A stretch of 64,000 nt of DNA from Pseudeuparius sepicola (lineage: Eukaryota; Arthropoda; Insecta; Coleoptera; Anthribidae). Of the stretch, positions 12,733 to 54,260 are shown in pieces; within the stretch, counting starts at the first letter, position 1, and each line of letters begins with the position of its first letter. Below the pieces are notes generated by a model. That model saw nothing but the letters and a program-made list of their open reading frames with translations, did not search any database and was not told the DNA's origin. The DNA lies in NCBI GenBank assembly GCA_963920635.1, contig OY987299.1, positions 120,157,373-120,221,372 of the forward strand. Reading direction: 5' to 3'. Position numbers and translations under genes: made by a program.

Positions 12733-14280
12733 CAGGGTGTTCCCGTATATTTTGACCCTCCCCTAGAGCCTTTATGTTTCGAGTTAGAAAAAAATTACTT
12801 AAATGAAAATTGTTGGGTAACAAGGTGTATTGTCCCAAAAATAATGGATTGACAGGAATGCTCTTGTCTAAGTTGACTTGTTTTTTCCATGGCAACCTTG
12901 ATTAAGTATAAATATGGTATTTATTTGCAATTTGGAATATCATGCGAATGCTTGGAGCAAACATATAACATCCATTTAATTTTTAATTGGTTTTTTCGCC
13001 ACCAAACTGATTGAAAGACAACTTTTTCAAGTTGCCTCGAAAATTAATATATTCTTAACACTAAATAAACGAAACTTTAAACGTGTAACTCAAAAAATAA
13101 CTTCAACAAATTTGTTTTCTGAGCTTTCGGAGGATAAATCTTCCTTCTTTCTCAAAGATCATGTCACGTCAAAGTGAAGTGACAGATTAATAAATTTCAG
13201 GTTAAAATGTCATGACAACAGAAACAATAGCCTAGCCACCTGCCTGATATTTTACCCTGTGTTTTATCTAATTATCTATACTAACTTCTCTTTGAATAAG
13301 TGGCAATAATATTTTACTGAATTCCACTAAACATTCAGCAACACAGTTGCCCGTATTTCCTAGAATAAATGCAGATTCTTTAATTTTTCGTCTATTTCCT
13401 ACTTCTTCTTTTAGAATTGGTTTGGAACTATCCCACAATATCCTATGATTGTTATTAAAGGAATGTTCACATATTTTTTACTTCGAAATTTGATTTTGCC
13501 TGATATAATTTTTATGTTCTTTTAAACGAACGTTAAATGGCCTACAAGTCTCCCCAACATAGAACTTTCCACATTCACAAGGAATTTTATAAATGCAATT
13601 TTTTGAACTTTGTAACTCATTAAATGGTTTTGTTTTAACTAGCATCGATCTTAATGTATTTTTGGTTTTAAATACTGTTCTCACATTAAAACGATTGCCT
13701 ATACGTTTTAGCTTATCTGACAGTCCAGGGATATAAGGAATTATTAAATTTACTGGTCGGTCCACCAGATTTATTTCGCTAATTCTATTAGCATTGTTAT
13801 TTTGTTGGCAATCCTGAAAAACTTGCTCAACAAATTCAATAGGATAACTATTCTCCTCAACAACATGTTTCATATGTTTAATTTCCTCCTCAAATTTTGT
13901 GTTATTAGAACAAATCGTTCTAGCCCTGTCATACAAACTTTTAATTACTCCTTTTTTAACACTAATATGATGATTGGAGTTGAAATGGAGATATCTATTA
14001 GTATGTGTTGGTTTTCTATAGACATATAACATATTTTATATTGTTAGAATCTGAAAAATGCGTGCAATTCAAAAATTCACAAATATACAGGGTGTTCCAT
14101 GAAAAAAAGTAAGTTTATATTTTTTCATAAATTTGCGACGCTCATTTGTTTTATCTAGTAACAGATCCTAGCGGTTCAGAAAAAACCCTACAACTTTCAT
14201 TTAAGTAATTTTTTTCTAACTCGAAAAATAAAAGCTCTAGGGGTGGGTCAAAATATACGGGAACACCCTGTACAGTGTAC
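12733..14280. mobile_element. TA-flanked CAGGGTGTTCC inverted-repeat element interrupted by the PLE
   Basis: Left end CAGGGTGTTCCCGTATATTT at 12733 and its reverse complement ending at 14280, both flanked by TA. About 80 bp of arm is complementary. A smaller element with the same termini (14098-14280) has a shortened relative at 46458-46571, and both share the same outer flank (14041-14097 and 46400-46457), so they descend from one ancestral insertion. TA duplication and short TIRs suggest a Tc1/mariner-type MITE. Confidence 0.7.
13268..14032 (-). pseudogene. Penelope-like element ORF, 5'-truncated, one in-frame stop
   Basis: Reads 255 codons in one frame, interrupted by a TAA at 13478-13480. 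It begins in the PLE reverse-transcriptase C-terminus (VYRKPTHTNRYLHF), passes through a basic linker and ends in a GIY-YIG endonuclease: CIYKIPCECGKFYVGET, the catalytic Arg in RPFNVRLKEH and, after the stop, the His of ICEHS and the Glu of KIKES. The palm motifs are missing. 5' truncation is typical of PLE insertion by target-primed reverse transcription. Sequence left of the end holds a stem motif (13112-13150) found in other PLE-type tails. It sits inside a TA-flanked TIR element (12733-14280). Confidence 0.85.
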
Positions 14281-19784: not shown

Positions 19785-19907
19785 CTGCAACAGAAGGGAC
19801 GCGCGTGATACTCGCGGTCCGCGAATTTGGAAATTTTACATTTTAAAAGTAATATTTGTTGCGCATGCGCGTTGTAGTCAGTAGCGCCATGGCAGTTATT
19901 TGTTGCA

Positions 19908-19953
19908 AAAGACCCAGACACGTTGGCTATAGCCAACGTGTCTGGGTCTTTTC
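19908..19953. repeat. 46-bp perfect palindrome abutting a hammerhead
   Basis: The sequence from aaaagacccagac to gtctgggtctttt is perfectly self-complementary around TATA. Its right half is also the 5' arm of hammerhead stem I. This looks like an inverted partial copy joined to the ribozyme unit, the same layout as the inverted copy at 34831-35395. Confidence 0.85.
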
Positions 19954-20038
19954 GGTTGAGGTGCGCTGCGTCTGCCTGATGAGGGCCAACAAGCCCGAAA
20001 CAGGTACCTGTCGTGGTCTGCACACCTCCGAAAGACCC
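19944..20038 (+). ncRNA. Type I hammerhead ribozyme near the Wnt6 acceptor
   Basis: CTGATGA at 19976-19982, stem II GGGC/GCCC with loop CAACAA (19983-19996), GAAA at 19997-20000, stem III CAGG/CCTG with loop TA (20001-20010), and cleavage triplet GTC with scission after 20012. Stem I is long: near-core wobble pairs, then GAGGTG pairing with CACCTC, CGG with CCG and GGGTCTTT with AAAGACCC. All catalytic core bases are intact. It is on the strand opposite to Wnt6, inside the long intron and 160 bp from the exon at 19468-19784, so Wnt6 pre-mRNA carries only its complement. It is preceded by a 46-bp perfect palindrome (19908-19953) that includes an inverted copy of its stem I arm. Confidence 0.88.
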
Positions 20039-20316
20039 ATACATAATTTCCATTAGACATTGGAAACTAGTTTGGTGTTGCCAATTACCAAAGCCTTTTG
20101 TCCCATATGCCACAAGCCATTTCTTTTAAAATTATAATGGGGACACTAAATATTCATTTTGTTATTTGTTGCCTTCAATGAAACATGTCTAATTTTTTGC
20201 ACAAGTGCGGGCGGTTATTAAGAAAAGTGGGACATTTCATCGAAAATGAAAGAAGGAGAACCAAATTATTACCACTGCCCATCTGTGACTCCCAGTTTAA
20301 TTTTTGTGCCTGTGAC

Positions 20317-25445: not shown

Positions 25446-25732
25446 TATTGTTCCATGCGAACTCGAAGCGAATAAAAGTGAAAAGTGGTGAACGAATAGT
25501 GAAGAGAATTAAGTGTACCGTGTAAGTGAGTAATTTTAGTGCGCTGTTATTCGATGACCTTGTTAAGGATAGATACGTGAATCATTATTACTGTCGAAAA
25601 ATGGAGGGGAAAAAAGGAAGGGTGATAAACTTAAAGGTATGGACTACTGGAAAAAGTGGTGTAGTCAAGGTCAAGGGGTTTCTAATAAAGAAACAAATTT
25701 GGATTTAGCTATCAAAGCTTCAGCTACCTTGC

Positions 25733-26032
25733 ATGCTGATAAGAAGACTGCCTAACCCGAAATCTAGTTTGGAATGCCTAGATATGTGCGATAAAAACCT
25801 TTATCCTAATATTTACACATTACTACAAATCTTGGCTACCATTCCTGTATCCACTGCTACCCCAGAAAGGTCTTTCTCGAGCCTAAGGAGACTGAAAAAC
25901 TATTTACGAAACACTACAAGTGAAAACAGACTTAATGGTTTGGCTCTAATGAACATTCACTATGGAACAGAAATTCATGCAGATGAAGTAGTGGATATAT
26001 TTAAAAGAAAAAGCCGAAGATTTCTTCTTTAA
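25733..26032 (+). pseudogene. hAT transposase C-terminal dimerisation domain remnant
   Basis: Encodes NIYTLLQILATIPVSTATPE followed by RSFSSLRRLKNYLR and ENRLNGLALMNIH, the conserved hAT C-terminal (Dimer_Tnp_hAT) pattern with P-V-S-x-A-x-x-E-R-S/T-F-S. The RNase H catalytic core and the BED region are absent. About 30 codons upstream (25639-25755, MDYWKKWCSQGQ...) may be the original N-terminus in another frame, joined by internal deletion. It cannot encode an active transposase but could encode a dimerisation peptide. Confidence 0.85.
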
Positions 26033-33329: not shown

Positions 33330-34376
33330 TACACAAAGAGAAAACTTAGTGATTTTGTTGGTGCCTACTTGGATGTAAGAAACCTGAATCTCAAATCTAT
33401 TTGAAGTCATAAATTTCATTATTTCTATTTACTACTTCTATAGGCTATTAGATGTAACTTTTAGGCAAAGGATAATAAGGATTCCTACTGTTCCCGATCA
33501 GATCATTTCCTGTGTAATTTCTTCTTAGTATTTGTCTGTTTTGTTATAATAATAATACTAATAATTATCACCCTCCCACAATTCGGCCCTTTGCGGCTAG
33601 GGCCGAATTTTCCCAATAAAACTAGTACAGCATTCGCCCAAGTAGGTATTACGGAAAACCCTAGAAAACCGTAGTAATCCTAGTGAGTGTAGGAGAATTA
33701 GTATATTACGCAGATACAGCTATTAAGGAGCAATACCGTGAATGTACAATTTGTCCAGCGCTCTTAGCCATCATCAGTGGTTTTCTATAAAGACATGTGC
33801 GTGCAGTCTGCCTCGACCTCGATTCGAAACAAGGTTGATCGAAGGCAGAAAAACATGCAGTCTAAATAGTTAAAATGCTTCGAACATCGCCACGGCGGCT
33901 CCGCGATACTCTGTTCGTTATTATTTTTACTATAGTCACTGTTCTTTTCGTACATATTTTTCTGTTGTGGTTATTCTAGTCATATTTTGCCTGGGATTAA
34001 GTGTAACAACTACAAGTTCGTTTCCGATGTCATTAATAAACGACACGAACGCAAGGGGCCCAACAAGCGATTTCTGAAGCGTCTATTGTCCGGTGGCGAG
34101 AGGTCCGTGGCCTAAGCGTCAAGTTCCTTGCCAAAAAAGTGTGCAAAATCTCGACGGGCGTCTGACGGGAGGCCAACGGCCAGCACGGCCAACTTGGACT
34201 AGACGATTTACGGCCGGTGCCGCTAGCACGGAGTACCTGATGCGGAATTCGGTCGCTATCTGAGCCCATCAAGACGCCGTCGTTTTTATGCAGTCGGTTG
34301 CTGCGATCTGCGACTCGAAAATTGGAGGAGGCAGGCCTCCTTCGCCGATCTCAACAACTAAAAAAAACCTAATATA
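33330..34376. other. Intronic, no gene
   Basis: A short hairpin aattcggccct/agggccgaatt at 33581-33611 and a CG-rich stretch at 34030-34340 without a recognised protein. Confidence 0.4.
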
Positions 34377-35023
34377 GGGGAGAGTCACCATGAATGGGAC
34401 ATTTTTTTTATAAATGCGTATAATTTTGAAACAATTAAAGTTTTGCAGAAAACAAATTTTACTCAAATCATAAGGTGGTGTTAACCATCGCAAAATCGGG
34501 ATGTAAGCAATATATGTTATTTTTTTATAACAGAAAAAGGTATTTTTTTAAAAACTTGTATAGTGTCCCATTCAAGGAACATATACCATGTACGGGACAC
34601 GTGTTGTTTTTGAATGGGACATTGATAATAAAATCCAGGTTTCGTTTAGGAAATGCATGGGGTTGGGTTTTGTATAAAAAAATTACTCTAACAACAAATA
34701 ATACATAAGCAAATGAAAATATATTTCTAAAAATATAACCAAATTCAACAAAAAATTCTGTCAATATTAAAATAAAAACAATTAAAACAAAAAAAACGTG
34801 AAAATAAAACAGGTCACATTATTTTTCCATATATAAGGAATCAATCAATTACCGAAGCAATTAATTGATCATGGAGTATTATAATGATAGCACACCCGAA
34901 GGTGCGGGACAAAGCCACTGGTCTTGATCGGCAAAGGCTCACGCCACAATTACCGAGACCCGCCATCTGCCGTCTCCACGGCGTCGGTTAACCAACCGAA
35001 AACATCGATAGAACAAAAAGAGT

Positions 35024-35091
35024 GATAGTCGACCATATACAGTACTGTTTCGGGACGGTAATCCCTCATCAGTATGGCTCACCCGACTATC
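35024..35091 (-). ncRNA. Type I hammerhead ribozyme (minus-strand copy)
   Basis: This is the reverse complement of the copy at 35313-35380: same core, stems, loops and GTA cleavage triplet. Predicted scission on the minus strand falls between 35038 and 35037. It lies within the complete 300-bp monomer (34879-35178). Having both orientations within 360 bp means either transcript direction would carry an active-looking ribozyme. Confidence 0.88.
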
Positions 35092-35312
35092 AAGTGGTGT
35101 AGACAAACGTGCCTAGACGATAGATTTACTATATAAGGAATCAATCAATTACCGAAGCAATTAATTGATCATGGAGTAAAGACCAGTGGCTTTGTCCCGC
35201 ACCTTCGGGTGTGCTATCATTATAATACTCCATGATCAATTAATTGCTTCGGTAATTGATTGATTCCTTATATAGTAAATCTATCGTCTAGGCACGTTTG
35301 TCTACACCACTT

Positions 35313-35380
35313 GATAGTCGGGTGAGCCATACTGATGAGGGATTACCGTCCCGAAACAGTACTGTATATGGTCGACTATC
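35313..35380 (+). ncRNA. Type I hammerhead ribozyme (plus-strand copy)
   Basis: The full core is present in order: outer stem GATAGTCG/CGACTATC (35313-35320, 35373-35380), stem I CCATA/TATGG (35327-35331, 35367-35371), CTGATGA at 35332-35338, stem II GGGA/TCCC with loop TTACCG (35339-35352), GAAA at 35353-35356, and stem III CAG/CTG with a two-base loop (35357-35364). The cleavage triplet is GTA, with scission after 35366. Every invariant core base is kept. The very short stem III is typical of retroelement hammerheads, which often work as dimers. The internal loop in stem I (GGTGAG) is placed for the usual loop-loop contact with loop II. Confidence 0.88.
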
Positions 35381-35587
35381 ACTCTTTTTGTTCTACATTA
35401 TTTTTAGATATATATTTTCTCTCTTCTAAAAATTTCATCCCCAAAAAACAAATATGATTTTATACGAGATGTTCCAGGAACTTCGACCGGGCTAAGCTTC
35501 TTCAAAATAGACTCTTTTTTTACATCACAAATGTCTTAATTGTCGGGAAAATGGAATTTATTTCTTGTTCGTCTCAGAAAAGCAACA

Positions 35588-35836
35588 TTAAAAGTTTCTT
35601 CTTCTATTTTTAAATAACCTTCTGTTTCCTATATTTGACGAATGTTTATATAAATCAATTGTCAAATTTCTAACAATTTCCACAGCTCTATGCAGGGACG
35701 TTTTCGAAATTCCCGTACATTGTGCAACCTCTCTTATTGAAGATGCATTTAGGTACAACAACTTTACGCACAGCCGCTTCCATAGCACCTGAAGATGTCC
35801 GCTGTCTTTTATTTGGCTCCATTCTACAGCCTGCAA
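35588..35836 (-). pseudogene. Transposase helix-turn-helix remnant
   Basis: 82 residues with SIREVAQCTGISKTSLHRAV, a typical psq/HTH recognition helix pair as in the N-terminus of pogo/Tigger transposases. No DDE core was found. The name rests on the HTH and the TA/TIR context. Confidence 0.5.
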
Positions 35837-38395
35837 GCTAAGATTTTATACTTACCTAATTTTTATTTTTATTTCATCACCAAACTAGAACATGCCCCTT
35901 GAATGGGACGTGTCCCAATCAGGGAACACAAGTTCGTCCCATTCAGGGAGCCAGCCACCATATTGGAAATGAATTATTTACTTCCCAACCCCAAAATATA
36001 AAACACATTTTTTTGTTTAAAATCATAGTTTAATGCAAGGAGTTTTAATAACAGAATTCATTCTTACCTGTTGTATAGCTATCCTGGTATATAGCTAATC
36101 TAATAGGGCTTCAATTATTTACTTCTAAAAGTCAAATTAAACAAAATTTTAACAAAGACGCACTATACAACATCCAGCACTGAAATTCCGTTTGGAAGAT
36201 TGCATTCTCATGCGCCACCTATTGACAAAGTGCCAAACCCTCCAGTTCAAGCATTTAGTTTTCTTTTAGATGTCCCATTCAAGGAGCGTCCCATTCATGG
36301 TGACTCTCCCCTACAGAAGCACACTGGAGAAAAAATAACTATTTGACATACTTTGACATTTTTTGTTTGAAAATTTCCCGAAATATTATGTGATGATTTC
36401 GGGAAATGAATTGAACCTCATGACTTTAAGGCCCGCCAGCTGGCGACGCGAAACGTTACTACGTAATCACAGCGTGGTGGCTTTTTGTAGTTGTTTACGT
36501 TTACTTGTCTGGCGATTTTCCTGTTTTAAAGAACGTTTGTTGTGTTTATTGTTTTTTGGACTGTGTTTTTTTAGTAATATAGGACGTGGAGTTTTATTAA
36601 TACGGTGATATAACAGCAGTGGTTCAGAATTCGGACTTCGGACTTATTTAAATCACGCCGTGAAAGTGCTTCGTATCCTTAGACCACAGAAAATATACGC
36701 TACGCGGACAGAAGTTCCACACAATGTAATTATTTGGCAGCCCGAAAGGAAGCCGGCTCTCGAAAGCCGGCTTACCCTGGCTTTCAGCAGTGTCTATAGA
36801 AGAATTCTTCCATAGTTCTGCCTTGACGGCCGTGGTACTTTCATTACTCAATACTAGGCGGCAGCACGCTAGGAAAAAGCATCCGAAAGCGGCGTTGCCG
36901 GATTGTGCAAACAGTCGGTGGTTTTACCGAACTATAAAAATAAAGAGAAGATCTTTAATAAAATGAGCTTGCCCATTTAGAATCCAAGGTTAACAGTGAC
37001 GCTGTCAGCAGTAACTATAGAATTCTTCCCTCGAGAGATTTATTTTTTTCGTCGTTCTTGGAAAGGGCATTCAATAATTATTTTACGAATCCGTGGCTGA
37101 AAAAAATTACTGCGCAAAAACCACCCCTGCACCCCTCAAGGAACAAAATAATAACTACATTATTCTTGTATTCTTGGTCCGATTATCTGCGCCGTTTTTA
37201 GCAACGACGTTCCAAATGATTCCAGATGCATGAACATGAACCCGTGGTAGAAAAATTTACAAGCAAAAATTATCCCTTCCAACTTCCAACCCTCGGATAG
37301 ATTGCTTTTGGTCCGACTATGATAGTTTTTTGAAAGCCTAGCCACTATAACTCTTATTTCACGAATCCGTGGTAGAAAAAAATCATCGTACAAAAGCTAC
37401 CCCAGTGGCGTCGCGTCGGGGGGGGGGGGCAGGGGGGCACGGGCCCCCCCAGTTTTTGTTAGGTGGGAATTTTATAACACTACCTACCTAAGGTAAAAAT
37501 GGAAATAATTCACAGCAATCACTTAATTAATTACATGAGCGGTGTGATGGTGCCTATAGTTTTGGCCTCATGGGCTACGGTAGGCACCGCATGGCCGCGC
37601 GTGCATAGATTTGTCTTAACCTGACTCGCCTCGCACTTGATAGAATGTTTTACCCAAAAAAGCAGTCGAAGAATGAAGTTTTATTGAGTAAATATGATGT
37701 GCCTGACCTGTAAAAGATGCATGATATTTTTACAAGCTTTTATTTAACTTGTCCGCATCAATAAGACTGCTCACGACTGTCGCGTCTGACACTTTTTTGG
37801 GCCACCATGCGCCCTTCCGAGACAAAATACAATGCAAAAGGCATTGTTGGTTATTTGCGCCAACTTCTTTCAGGGACATGAAGTTATAGTCGAGTCGTGA
37901 GAAGTCTTTATAAATACGTCAGTCAATGCTATTTCTGCACAACCTATTTGACATGGGTATGAAATGACGAGTACAAAAAAATAAGTGGCGTCATACTAAA
38001 TCCAATATAGCGGATGTCCCAAGATGGTGGACTAAATTTCTTTACCACCCTCCTGATATTGAGAATCAAATAAAATAAAAGTTAAAAAAACTTTGTCAAA
38101 ACAAGCTTTTATTTAAACCATATACTAAAACGAATAAAATAATATAAAATAAGTCTAGGTTTTCAGTAAAGATAATTCAACGCCAAACTGCGTTTTTGTA
38201 AATCAAAAAGCATGTCGCGCGAGATGTTCATTAACGTAAGTACCAATTAATTTTGTTGGACAGTGATTGGTTGATAAGCAAGTACCTATTTGCCAAAGTA
38301 TGTATTTTCCTTAAAATTCGCGCGAAAAGCTTTCAGATTTATAAGAACTTGTCGCAATTTGACATTGAATTATCTTAACAAAAACCGATACTAAA

Positions 38396-39417: not shown

Positions 39418-41815
39418 TTTTTCTAAATTATTTTATTTTTAGATGTTATTTATTTTTTGTTTGTATTAATGATAGGACAGTACATACAACTTGTTTTATT
39501 TTGGAAGTTTTTTCTGACAGTGACAGTACAAGTTTTTTTTAATTTCGGAATTTTTTTTTTGTTTTTGATTCATGTATTATTTGTCTCGTTGGTTCATTAA
39601 AAATATGAAAATAAACGAGTACCTAATTGTTTTCTTTTCCCATTTTTGTTTCAGTTCAACTAAAATTGCGATAAAAAAATATTGAAATGTTGTTCATTGT
39701 CTTGAGAAAAAAAAAAATTAAGGTGCCCCCCCTGCTTCCGAAGTCACGCGACGCCACTGAGCTACCCCATGCACCCCCTGAAAAATTGATAATTCCATTG
39801 TTCTTAGTTCGATGTTCACCGTTTTAGCAAGGACGTTCCAAATGATTCCAGATGCACAAATTAGTGGTTGAAAAAATTTGTCAGGAAAAAACTACCCCCT
39901 CCACCAGAGATATTGTTTTTGAGACGATTATTTAGTCATTTTTTGAAAAGGCATTACTATATACCTACCTTATTTCACGAATCGGTGGTTGAAAACATTT
40001 ACGGGGCAAAAACTACCCCTTCCCACCCCCGAAAGTTTATTTTTAATTAGATTATTGTCGTTCCTTGAAAAGACATTCACTATTTCCCTTATTTCACGTA
40101 TCCGTGGTTGAAAACATTTACGGGGCAAAAACTACCCCTTCCCCCCCGAAAGCGTATTTTTAATTTGATTATTGTCGTTTTTGAAAAGACATTCACTATA
40201 TCCCTTATTTCACGAATCCGTGGTTGGAAACATTTACGGGGCAAAAACTACCCCTTCCCACCCCCGAAAGTTTATTTTTAATTTGATTATTGTCGTTTTT
40301 TGAAAAGACATTCACTAATATTCACTGTATCCTTTATTTCACGAATCCTTGATTGAAAACATTTACGGGGCAAAAACTACCCCTTCCCACCCCAGAAAGT
40401 TTGTTTTAAATTTGATTATTGTCGTTTTTTGAAAATGCAATCACTATATTCCTTATTTCACGAATGTGTGGTTGAAAACATTTGCGGGGCAAAAACTACC
40501 CCTTCCCACCCCAGAAAGTTTGTTTTTAATTTGATTATCGTTTTTTTAAAAGACATTCACTATATCCCTTATTTCACGAATCCGTGGTTGAAAACCTTTA
40601 CGGGGCAAAAACTACCCCTTCCCACCCCCGGACCGGAAGTTTGTTTTTAACTTGATTATTGTCGTTTTTTGAAAATGCAATCACTATATTCCTTATTTCA
40701 CGAATCCGTGTTGAAAACATTTGCGGGGCAAAAACTACCCCTTTCCACCCCGAACTGATTTTTTTAATTTGATTATTGTCGTTTTTTGAAAGGTATGCTG
40801 GGGGTATTATTCGCCCAACAATTTTTTTAACCACGAATTTGTGCATCTGGAATCTTTGCGAACGTCCTTGCTAAAATTGGCGAGGATCCGACAATATAAG
40901 TTATCATTTTTGTTCTTAAAGTTGTGCTGGGGGTAGTTTTCGCACAAGAATTTTTTTCTACGGCGAATTCGTGAAAATAGAGTCATTATATAAGGACGTA
41001 GTTGCTAAAATCGGCCAGGATCAGACAATGAAGTTATAATTTTTTTAAAAGGGTACTGGGGTAGTTTTCGCCCAACAATTTTTTTAAAGTACAAATTTGT
41101 GCATCGGGAATCATTAGGAACGTCCTTGCTAAAAACGGTGGGAATCGTACCATGAAATTTTCCTTTTTTTCCTTAAGGGGTAGTGGGGGGTAGTTTTTGC
41201 CCAACAAATTTTTTCAACCACGAATTCGCGCATCTAGATTCAACCGCGAATTCGTGAATCTAGAATCATTTAGAACGTACCTACTTGCTAAAATCGGCCA
41301 AGATCCGACAATAATAAAGTTATCATTTTTGTTTTTAAAGGGGTCCTGAGGGTATACTTAGTTTTCGCACAAGAAATTTTTTCAACGGCGAATTCGTGAC
41401 TCTAGTCATTAAAAACGTACTTGCTAAAATCGGCCAGGATCCGATAATGAAGTTATATTTTTTTAAAAGGGGTGCTGGGGGTAGTTTCCGACCAACAACT
41501 TTTTTAAAGTAGGTACAGATTTGTGCATTATCTGGCATCATTAGGAACGTCCTTGCTAAAAACGGTGGGAATCGTACCATGAAAGTTATCTTTTTTCTTT
41601 AAGGGGTAGTGGGGGTAGTTTTCGCACATCAAATTTTTTCAACCACGAATTCGCGCATCTGGAATCATTAGAAACGTTCCTTGCTAAAATTGGCGAGGAT
41701 CCGACAATGAAGTTATCATTTTTGTTCTTAAAGGGGTGCTGGAGGGTAGTTTTCGCCCAACAATTTTCTTCAACCACGAATTCGTGCATTTGGAATGATT
41801 AGGAACGTCCTTGCG

Positions 41816-50413: not shown

Positions 50414-52710
50414 CTAGACCCTTGCCATGTTATCGGGCCTTTTAGGTGACATTGATGTTGTCGGACGTTCCTGCATTCCCATGAATTTCCTGACGGTTCG
50501 GGCTGTCGCAAGTAGTACCGCTTTCTGCATGGACCTGTAAAGACTATCAGTTAGACCCAGCTCTTTTATGTTTCTCAGCAAACTTTTTGGTATAACACCA
50601 GTTGTTGACACGATAATTGGAATCGTCTTGACGTTTTCCATTTCCCATTGCCTTCTAATTCGTTCTTCTAAGTCTCTGTACTTCGCGATCTTCTCGACTT
50701 GCTTCACACGCAGGTTGTTGTTGTTCGGGATGGCCACATCAATCAGAGTTGTCTTCCTAGAAATTTTATCAACTATTATAAGGTCCGGTCTGTTATGGAC
50801 AACTCGTTGATCTGTCAGAACTGTACGATCCCAGTACATCTTGTAGTTGCTGTTCTCAAGAACAGGCTCCGGTGTGTAGATGTAATATGGGACCCTCTCT
50901 GCCTGCACAAGCAGCAGTTTTTCCCCCAGTTCCTGGTGCAAGATCTTGGCAACCGAATCGTGTCGTTCCTTATATTCCGTTGATGCGAACATCTGACATC
51001 CTCCTGTTATGTGCTGGATTGTTTCTGAAGTTGGGCACCCGTATCTGCATCTGTCATCCACTACCGATGCATCTCCTACAATGAATTTTAGGTAGTTGCG
51101 AGTTGGTATAACCTGATCTTGTATGGCCAGTAAGAAGCCTTCCGTCTCGGGGAACATTCTTCCCGAGGTCAGCCAGTAGTTCGACGCTAACTTGTCGACA
51201 TGTTCCTGGTTGACCTCATTAGGATGCCTCCCGTGCAGCGGCTTCTCCAACCACCTCTGTAGTGTATCGTTGTCGGTTCGGTGGTGATTTTGATGCTCGT
51301 GTTCCGTCAGACGTAGCGGTGTTGAGACGTCTGCTCCGCATATAGCTTTATGTAGTGTGGAGCTGTTGGCCTGTCTCTGGAAATAATTACGCAGATTTAT
51401 TATTTGTTGGTCCAATTGCTTGCTGAGGTCTGCCAATCCTCTTCCTCCTAGTTGACGTGGCAGAGTAGTTCTTTCTACGGCGCTACGGGGATGATGTTTA
51501 TGAGCTTTTGTCAGTAGTGTCCTAACTTTTCGCTGCAGGTTGTTGATGTCCGTGTTGGTCCAATTCACTATTCCAAACGAATAGCTGAGTACAGAGCACG
51601 CATACGTGTTCAGGGCCTTAAACAAATTCCTGCTGTTAAGATCAGTTCGCACTACTTGTCTTACTCTCTTGATGAATTCATTCCTTAAATCGATCTTCAT
51701 TGTTCGATGGTCTATCCTTTGAGCTTGTTTCATCCCGAGATACTTGTATGTATCTCCCATGCTCATTGCTTCGATCTCCTGGCCGTCCTGCATCTCGTGT
51801 GCGCCCTGTTCGAGCCTTCCCCGGACAATGTTAAGGGTGCGGCACTTGTCCAGTCCAAACTGCATTCCGATGTCCCTGGAGAACTCCTCTACAATTTTAA
51901 GCATTTGCGTTAGTTGGTTTTTGGTTGCGGCCATCAGTTTTAAATCATCCATATATAATAGGTGATTCAACTTGATCGCTTCTGCGTTGTTGCTTTTGAT
52001 AGCGAAGCCGTATTTTGTAGAGTTCAACCGATGTGATAGAGGGTTCATCGCCATGCAGAACCACAGTGGACTGAGTGAGTCTCCTTGGAAAATCCCTCTT
52101 CGGATGTTGATTGTGTCGGTCTCGATGTTGCTGCTTGCGGTTCTGAGTTGTATCTTAGTGCGCCAGGTTGTCATAACGTGTTCTAAAAAGGAAACTGTAT
52201 GATGATCTATTTTATACAGCTTTAAGATACCTGTTAGCCAGTCGTGAGGTACGGAATCAAATGCTTTTTTGTAGTCCACATAAGCCATGTAGAGGTTTCG
52301 TTGCTTGGAATGAGCCTGGTTGCAGATGACAGAGTCTATGATGAGTTGCTCTTTGCATCCCATTGCGCCCTTCGCGCAGCCCTTCTGCTGCATTGCCATG
52401 ATGTTGTTCCGCTCGCAGTGAGCATATATTCGCTGCGTAAGGCAAGAAGTGATTATCTTGTACAGCGTAGGCAAGCAGGTTATTGGGCGGTACTTGGCAG
52501 GGTTATCCGTATTCCGCTGGTCTTTTGGTAACAAGTAGGTGGCACCCTCTGTAAGAAACAATGGCATTTTCAGAGGATCGAGCAAGACTTCATTAATTAA
52601 GGTAGTTATTTGTTCATGCGTGCACCACAACTTCTTAATCCAATAATTTTGGAGATGATCTGGACCTGGTGCCTTCCAGTTGTGGGAATTCTTGATGACA
52701 TTGGAGACCT
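50414..52710 (-). CDS. Dong/R4-like non-LTR retrotransposon, RT plus restriction-like endonuclease (5'-truncated)
   Basis: An uninterrupted frame of about 765 element-derived codons. Numbering from the open frame's first Met (52774): NWKAPGPDH near 33-40, fingers motif RPITCLPTLYKIITSCL 96-112, DYKKAFDSVPHDWL 167-180 (first catalytic Asp), GDSLSPLWFCMA 231-242, YMDD 274-277 (catalytic pair), thumb, then a zinc knuckle C576-x3-C580-x7-H588-x4-C593 and a PD-(D/E)xK nuclease (RPD 662-664, D679, KY 698-699). This order, with no apurinic endonuclease, defines the R2/R4-type group. The 3' end is in (TAA)n, the known target of Dong. The N-terminal zinc fingers are missing. The intact frame suggests a young insertion. 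Confidence 0.85.
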
Positions 52711-52726
52711 CATTATTATTATTATC
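52711..52726 (-). repeat. (TAA)n junction between tandem Dong-like copies
   Basis: Four TAA units separate the 3' end of one copy from the truncated 5' end of the next. Read in frame they encode NNNN in the fused reading frame. Confidence 0.85.
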
Positions 52727-53459
52727 TCGACTTAGCCAAAAGGCATTCGCACTCCCTCTACGGGGAACATTCACTCAGATCCCGGGTATCCCGGATACCA
52801 AAAGGATCTGGCTCGGACGAGACCCTTGCCATGTTATCGGGCCTTAGGTGACATTGATGTTGTTGGACGTTCCTGCACTCCCCATGAATTTCCTGACGGT
52901 TCGGGCTGTCGCAAGTAGTACCGCTTTCTGCATGGACCTGTAAAGACTATCAGTTAGACCCAGCTCCTTGATGTTTCTCAGCAAACTTTTTGGTATAACA
53001 CCAGTTGTTGACATGATGATTGGAATCGTCTGGATGTTCTCCATTTCCCATTGCCTTCTAATTCGTTCTTCTAAATCTCTGTACTTCGCGATCTTCTCGA
53101 CTTGCTTCATACGCAGGTTGTTGTTGTTCGGGATGGCCACATCAATCAGAGTTGTCTGCCTAGAAATTTTATCAACTATTATAAGGTCCGGTCTGTTATG
53201 GGCAACTCGTTGATCTGTCAGAACTGTACGATCCCAGTACATCTTGTAGTTTCTGTTCTCAAGAACAGGCTCAGGTGTGTAGTTGTAATATGGGACCCTC
53301 TCTGCCTGCACAAGCAGCAGCTTTTCCGCCAGTTCCTGGTGCAAGATCTTGGCAACCGAATCGTGTCGTTCCTTATATTCCGTTGATGCGAACATCTGAC
53401 ATCCTCCTGTTATGTGCTGGATTGTTTCTGAAGTTGGGCACCCGTATCTGCATCTAAAA
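52727..53459 (-). pseudogene. Second Dong/R4-like copy, C-terminal endonuclease only
   Basis: Very similar to the 3' third of the element at 50324-52710: zinc knuckle, RPD...D endonuclease and 3' UTR. 5'-truncated at 53459, where homology stops. A one-base insertion near 52890 changes the last residues (KFMG then SAGTSNNINVT). Its (TAA)n tail is the junction with the longer copy. Confidence 0.9.
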
Positions 53460-53464
53460 ATCAA

Positions 53465-54260
53465 ATCTTTAATGGTTCTTTTAGCGAATAGCATGCAAAA
53501 AAACTACCTTTCGGATGCCTGGATGATTTTCCTTGCGGGTGTCGTACTCCTTTCTTATGTTATCCAAAAATCCTCTCGAAAATCACAAGAAGCACTAGGT
53601 AACTGGTTGCCAGTCGAATCGCTTTTTCCGAGGCTTTTTCGCAGTATTTGAAGAATATTGACGCAACCATGTATCATTTGGTGTATGTGGAGATTAAATA
53701 AATAAATAAATAATTTTTGGACAACTCCTTAAAAGTTCTTTTAGCGAATAGCTCGACGAATAGCATGAAAAAGCCTACCTTTGAGATGCATCGATTATTT
53801 TTACTATTTTCTTGTGTTTAGATACTATCCAAAAATCTTCACAAAATCACATAAAGCACTAAGTACCTACCTAACTAGTGGCACTGTTTTTATACGATGG
53901 TCGCGAAGGTATAACACTTCATAGTCTCTTTTTACGGAAATACGAACAAAACACTTGTTTTTTTTTCACTGCACACTTAAAGCGGCGCGATGCCAAATAT
54001 TAGGGACGTCTCGGTTTCCCTCAGCTGATTTATTCCAACGGGGACTCGACTAGGTGGATTGTACAATTAGATCCATACCGTATGCGTCTAATAAAACCCG
54101 AATTTTCGCGAACCCTTGAAGCTGCTTCTTTTATCCTCGCGCGTAATTGGGGTACCTAGTAGGAACCTATCTAGCACTGTTTTCATACGAAGGCCGCGAA
54201 CGTTTAGCACTGCATTTCTTAACGGAAATATGAAAAAATCACTTGTTATTTCACTGCAAA
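53465..54260. repeat. Degenerate tandem repeat, about 265-290-bp period
   Basis: gttcttttagcgaatagc...tatccaaaaatc...cacaa-aagcacta occurs at 53475 and 53730. The block 'agcactgtttt-atacga-ggtcgcgaa' occurs at 53880 and 54170. A (TAAA)n stretch lies at 53695. Confidence 0.65.

Follow-up and report, generated by a model that had tools for sequence, protein, structure and literature searches.

A retrozyme-like hammerhead unit inserted as more than one lap and an inverted partial lap in the beetle Pseudeuparius sepicola

Here, we describe within a window of the Pseudeuparius sepicola genome (the whole stretch of 64,000 nucleotides analysed, from contig OY987299.1) an insertion in which a 300-bp unit with a predicted hammerhead ribozyme is present for more than one lap and then again, in inverted orientation, for part of a lap. 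The overall sequence observation behind the original prediction, a 300-bp unit with an inverted copy and one hammerhead on each strand, is confirmed. On sequence grounds, the element resembles the animal retrozymes and would be a new member among them, an assignment that rests on one locus. Its genomic arrangement, in which over one lap is followed by an inverted one, appears to be a new variant. We favour, as the somewhat more probable account, that the insertion arose from a retrozyme-type RNA through Penelope-type machinery that was primed from both target strands.

The insertion lies between two exact copies of an 11-bp sequence, ACATTATTTTT, at 34816-34826 and 35395-35405 (both + strand), and a flanking repeat such as this one arises in 5 of 195,124 usable random draws from the local sequence. 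The left target-site duplication is followed by three bases, CCA (34827-34829, + strand), that are foreign to the 300-bp unit, and then by the first copy, which spans 349 bp or 1.16 laps of the 300-nt unit (34830-35178) and has its ribozyme sense on the - strand. A single complete unit with a G+C content of 46% occupies 34830-35129 (- strand). The 49 bp at 34830-34878, which do not include the ribozyme, recur with 100% identity at 35130-35178 (both + strand) at a spacing of exactly 300; the spacing agrees with the original prediction, but the length of the direct repeat, previously given as 48 bp, does not. At 35178/35179 the first copy meets the second, inverted copy in a head-to-head (5'-5') junction, with neither microhomology nor a palindrome right there as judged by eye. 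The second copy measures 217 bp or 0.72 lap (35179-35395, ribozyme sense on the + strand) and has its final base in common with the right duplication. Its reverse complement corresponds to unit positions 180-300 followed by 1-96, and the previously claimed inverted copy with a second hammerhead is thereby borne out, in register with the unit. Compared with one 300-bp circle, there are 0 mismatches over the 349 positions of the first copy and 0 over the 217 of the second, and all 266 redundant positions agree. This agreement suggests that the insertion is young, although the perfect identity of the arms may instead come from exchange or conversion between them. The 11-bp flanking duplication, the CCA at the left end and the position of the ribozyme outside the 49-bp repeat had all gone unreported.

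The single 11-bp direct repeat around the whole locus argues for one insertion. Two separate insertions would fit poorly with one duplication around the whole and with flanks that are not inverted. Perfect inverted repeats are also typical of assembly and sequencing artefacts, such as a missed hairpin adapter or a chimeric read. In that case, however, the unique flanks should be inverted too, whereas here the inversion ends at the ends of the element, where the 11-bp duplication brackets it, and two other loci in the window, described below, carry an inverted copy on the same side. We therefore regard an artefact as extremely improbable.

Each copy contains one predicted type I hammerhead ribozyme, with helices II and III closed and helix I open. 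In the first copy it is located at 35024-35091 on the - strand, with cleavage expected between 35038 and 35037; the identical ribozyme of the inverted copy is located at 35313-35380 on the + strand, with cleavage expected after 35366. Sequence analysis thus reproduces the cleavage positions that had been put forward for both strands. A first motif descriptor returned three sites in the window, the ribozyme twice and a further motif at 19976 once, compared with 2 matches in 200 dinucleotide shuffles, both strands included. The second descriptor, which was written after a motif at 2302 was known and was shaped to admit it, found the ribozyme twice and the 2302 motif, not the one at 19976; 100 shuffles gave 0 matches with a perfect core and 1 with one mismatch. 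On the antisense strand of the 300-nt unit, neither descriptor finds a hammerhead.

With the core kept open, a 75-nt piece is predicted to fold into the expected three helices: helix I with 6 inner pairs, a 5-nt bulge and an outer helix, helix II with 5 pairs, and helix III with two pairs next to the A-U pair of the core, closed off by a GUAC tetraloop. The unconstrained fold of the same piece favours another structure by 5.0 kcal/mol, and a hand-drawn hammerhead on 68 nt is less stable than the minimum by 12.0 kcal/mol. When the core is kept open in the complete 300-nt circle, helices II and III form and other pairs replace helix I, at 4.8 kcal/mol above the minimum. Because the models behind folding programs do not cover the hammerhead core, self-cleavage of the RNA remains a prediction here. 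The descriptors and the core-open fold of the 75-nt piece support the earlier claim of a complete type I hammerhead, yet the covariance-model search that had been proposed alongside it leaves the ribozyme unrecognised at the Rfam cut-offs. Over the whole window there was no match at the gathering score, and over the 621-bp locus at E<=10 there were six sub-threshold matches, none of them to a hammerhead. A 96-bp hammerhead piece matched Hammerhead_3 alone, at 12.1 bits (cut-off 48.5, E 4.1), with the core aligned and the closing helix unexpected.

What was the template of the two copies? With the RNA numbered from the expected cleavage site onward, the first copy starts at nt 208, descends to 1, continues at 300 and stops at 160 (349 nt); the second starts at nt 28/29 and likewise passes 1 and 300 before it stops at 113. 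Both cross the expected cleavage site without a scar, and neither starts at nt 300, as would be expected if priming had taken place at the end of a cleaved monomer. As the cleavage site is read through twice and one copy exceeds one lap, the two copies were made from a closed circle or from an uncut multimer and not from a cleaved linear monomer. Of these two we infer that a circle is the most likely. According to the consulted part of PMC11167929, uncut RNA was the main substrate of the Penelope protein PAc and ribozyme mutants were inserted as well, which would speak for an uncut multimer no less than for a circle.

The same coordinates bear on whether the inverted copy could stem from self-copying of the cDNA. 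The second segment is nowhere contiguous in the first (longest prefix 169 and longest suffix 96, of 216), so that it cannot be a single fold-back copy of the first copy as it is present now, and that candidate was rejected. A more elaborate version would have a cDNA that snapped back and copied itself, with the centre of the palindrome later losing 47 bp on one side. It requires a longer original cDNA and an asymmetric deletion, and self-priming on a sense template would produce a tail-to-tail arrangement, by an argument in the consulted part of PMC3846280. The same part of that work relates that palindromes at Penelope junctions prompted a self-priming proposal, and a perfect palindrome, 46 nt in length, is present at the junction of the 19976 locus. 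Taken together, we consider fold-back improbable.

We propose instead that the inverted pair would have formed by priming on both target strands. The template would be an RNA of 300 nt that carries a single type I hammerhead, is continuous over the cleavage site and is most likely circular. A Penelope-type enzyme would make a staggered cut, offset by 11 bp, in AT-rich DNA, after which the 3' end on one side would prime a 349-nt cDNA of more than one lap and the opposite 3' end another one, of 217 nt, from the same or an identical circle. The two cDNAs would then be joined where they meet, ribozyme 5' side to 5' side. In both copies the 3' side of the ribozyme faces outward at the target and the 5' sides meet, as is expected of two cDNAs primed from both sides of a staggered cut.

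This arrangement resembles that of Penelope-like elements with an endonuclease, which share the inverted head-to-head partial copy, the short AT-rich target duplication and the hammerhead (consulted parts of PMC3846280 and PMC11167929). Penelope-like elements are described there as having an adjacent inverted terminal repeat that is most often head-to-head, and as having 8-10 bp duplications in several copies, with others lacking a duplication or showing direct repeats only (PMC3846280, rotifer). The PAc protein cuts both strands of its target and extends them, with a preference for AT-rich DNA containing ATT, as reported in the part of PMC11167929 considered here. Unlike Penelope-like elements, the 300-nt unit is without a reverse-transcriptase or GIY-YIG ORF (longest open run 57 codons). 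Moreover, the start sites of the two copies are 120-121 nt apart on the circle and are not AC-rich; this distance differs from the 31-bp tail of Penelope-like elements and from the two adjacent sites of PAc, as far as the consulted text describes these, and it counts against the reading we favour.

A further point against two-strand priming by a Penelope-type enzyme is that twin priming by LINE machinery would yield a similar polarity. In the consulted parts of PMC2837659 and PMC2912911, LINE-1 twin-primed (5'-inverted) insertions similarly consist of an inverted, truncated copy with a target duplication, and the 15-bp duplications of Nematostella hammerhead repeats have been likened to those of LINEs (part of PMC4918200). 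The window itself contains a 785-aa reverse-transcriptase ORF (RVT_1) at 50414-52774, non-LTR by our reading. Sequence resembling the C-terminal part of this ORF recurs at 52844-53503. In contrast to LINE-1 twin-primed insertions as described in those parts, the present locus has a short unit that is copied beyond one lap, a read-through of the ribozyme cleavage site and, by eye, no poly-A start. Both start points are internal on the circle, and inverted copies at three of three hammerhead-like loci are more Penelope-like. An L1-like twin priming of a retrozyme RNA therefore seems unlikely to us, to the same degree as fold-back.

The two other hammerhead-like loci in the window support the same direction, less strongly. 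The older one, with a minimal core at 2302 (2096-2403, + strand), was first noticed as a weak BLAST match and is flanked by 11-bp repeats, GTTATACCCAT, at 2085-2095 and 2404-2414. It has an inverted 41-bp partial copy 5' of the core, whose arms, at 2129-2169 and 2367-2408, match except for one mismatch and one indel. As judged by eye, the two 3' ends of this locus are offset by 33-38 nt, close to the 31-bp tail of Penelope. The other locus, with its core at 19976 (19917-20030, + strand), is flanked by a 9-bp repeat, AAAGACCCA, at 19908-19916 and 20031-20039; on its 5' side lies a perfect palindrome of 46 nt (19907-19952), which contains the left copy of AAAGACCCA. In Rfam this locus scores 27.0 bits for Hammerhead_HH9, below the cut-off of 52. 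The flanking repeats of the 2302 and 19976 loci are weak, as 1,106 and 373 of 20,000 random placements, respectively, match as well. All three hammerhead-like loci in the window carry an inverted partial copy on the 5' side, whereas, of 3,000 random positions outside these loci, 125 have an exact inverted repeat with arms of at least 23 nt (the shortest of the three) nearby. Three out of three is not expected by chance, in a tally that is small and was made after the fact. The window also contains a broken C-terminal piece of a Penelope-like element at 13271-14023 (- strand), some relatives of which have GIY-YIG or reverse-transcriptase domains; its top match is from Exocentrus adspersus, at 55%.

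These loci also bear on a model with a single priming event, in which a sense circle was copied for 349 nt before a jump to an antisense RNA of the same family. A jump of this kind can leave a junction without microhomology, as seen here by eye. RNA-RNA replication is considered possible for retrozymes and antisense templates have been proposed for Penelope (consulted parts of PMC7229834 and PMC3846280, respectively). However, both RNA polarities would be required, the antisense unit is without a hammerhead by either descriptor, and the ribozyme 3' sides face outward in three of three hammerhead-like loci as two-sided priming predicts, three being few. We consider such a template switch not very likely.

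How does the element compare to known retrozymes? Metazoan non-LTR retrozymes are described in the consulted part of PMC7229834 (Cervera and de la Pena 2020) as having units of 170-400 nt with a G+C content below 50%, a helix III of two pairs with a tetraloop, and target duplications of more than 4 bp. Similar to these, the element has a type I hammerhead with a two-pair helix III and a tetraloop, a non-coding 300-nt unit of 46% G+C with a fairly stable predicted circular fold, and a target duplication of more than 4 bp, here 11 bp. The circle has no coding capacity of note (the 57-codon run being the longest), in line with the earlier description of a small, non-coding hammerhead element with a retrozyme-like ribozyme. 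Its circular fold is predicted at -89.3 kcal/mol with 190 of the 300 bases paired, against a mean of -76.5 +/- 5.2 for 100 mononucleotide shuffles, 2 of which are equally stable; the antisense circle reaches a z of only -1.3. A tRNA, sought as a tRNA-like promoter, was not found by ARAGORN within the 64-kb window.

Unlike the metazoan non-LTR retrozymes in the consulted part of PMC7229834, the locus does not have tandem ribozymes in the same direction and consists of 1.16 laps plus an inverted 0.72 lap. As the tandem that would release monomers is absent, we class it as an insertion derived from a retrozyme-like RNA rather than as a functional retrozyme. Neither "inverted" nor "head-to-head" appears in the main text of PMC7229834. 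In the consulted passages of papers that name retrozymes (PMC7761336, PMC4918200, PMC11722881, PMC8969392), no description of an inverted retrozyme copy was found, and the literature searched gave no co-mention of retrozyme with head-to-head.

Alternatively, an exogenous viroid-like or satellite RNA circle could have been copied into the genome by chance. One copy of the element is known, and its size and circular logic are alike to those of such RNAs. In contrast to satellites and Avsunviroidae, where ribozymes on both polarities are common, the ribozyme is present on one polarity only by both descriptors. Helix III is of the invertebrate retrozyme type and two further hammerhead-like insertions lie nearby. 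The exact 26-nt core had 0 matches in viral contigs, where two looser patterns gave 0 and 1 and the pattern of the 19976 ribozyme 0, and the one pattern scanned against prokaryote genomes had 0 matches, in pattern scans that may leave out host genome records. The sole viral match was rejected as a relative: it is an unrelated 98,667-base contig with a lone hammerhead-like motif (L001:4256-4295) and no unit-length repeat. The free fold of that motif already has the hammerhead form. We consider an exogenous origin very improbable.

Could the inserted copy itself give rise to new circles? The 49-bp direct repeat excludes the ribozyme, so that neither strand carries two tandem hammerheads. With segments of 1.16 and 0.72 unit and one ribozyme per strand, the locus lacks the additional cleavage site of like orientation that would be needed to free a 300-nt monomer. 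The original prediction had regarded the locus as a tandem hammerhead unit of the kind that produces circular RNAs, which does not agree with one ribozyme per strand and a repeat of only 49 bp. It had also regarded ribozymes facing both ways as unusual; the two are one and the same ribozyme, seen again in the inverted copy, and the arrangement is known from the terminal repeats of Penelope-like elements (consulted part of PMC3846280). The predicted folds of the two 568-nt strands reach -371.7 and -386.9 kcal/mol, and in the full-length fold of either strand the entire 26-nt core of the ribozyme pairs with the sequence complementary to it. As predicted from these folds, transcripts of the locus can bury the ribozyme within a 170-bp hairpin. 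The inserted copy is probably a dead end, unable to cut out a full circle, and looks like a product rather than a source.

The element is nested in a DNA transposon, which appears to lie within a Wnt6 intron. The transposon spans 34375-36313 and has perfect terminal inverted repeats (26 of 26 bp, 34375-34400 and 36288-36313) with TA ends. Of a transposase, only sub-threshold helix-turn-helix matches remain in this interval, the best being HTH_23 at 16.9 bits against a cut-off of 24.6. Wnt exon pieces, all on the - strand, lie at 63.1 kb (profile positions 16-54), 19.3-19.8 kb (59-153) and 17.5-18.1 kb (151-304) and fit consecutive stretches of a single Pfam profile; from the order of the pieces we infer that they belong to one gene, which would place the hammerhead element inside an intron of about 43 kb, between the pieces at 63.1 kb and 19.3-19.8 kb. 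Of the nesting that was originally predicted, a terminal-inverted-repeat transposon within a Wnt6 intron is supported by these repeats and by the profile order, whereas the name Tigger-like is not established with a helix-turn-helix match below threshold. The top match of the Wnt6 exon is from Rhamnusium bicolor, with 83% identity across 85% of the exon. Rhamnusium bicolor and Exocentrus adspersus, which gave the top match of the Penelope fragment, are both longhorn beetles. The 19976 motif lies just upstream of a Wnt6 exon. Elsewhere in the window, we observe a hAT transposase C-terminal dimerisation fragment at 25709-26032 and tandem arrays with units of about 119-131 bp at 39864-41814.

In conclusion, the return of retrozymes to DNA by Penelope-like elements on a circular template has been proposed and is favoured but unproven, according to the consulted part of PMC7229834. 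The present locus, an insertion free of internal mismatches, allows its ends, lap length and orientation to be read at single-base resolution. It speaks against copying from a cleaved linear monomer and shows the insertion style of Penelope. As a tentative generalisation, Penelope-type enzymes might mobilise retrozymes by copying a single closed circle simultaneously from the two strands of a staggered cut; copies that exceed one circle and head-to-head copies would then be the direct trace of this act, which would also make the inverted repeats of Penelope elements. The locus thereby offers a testable clue to how self-cutting circular RNAs enter genomes.
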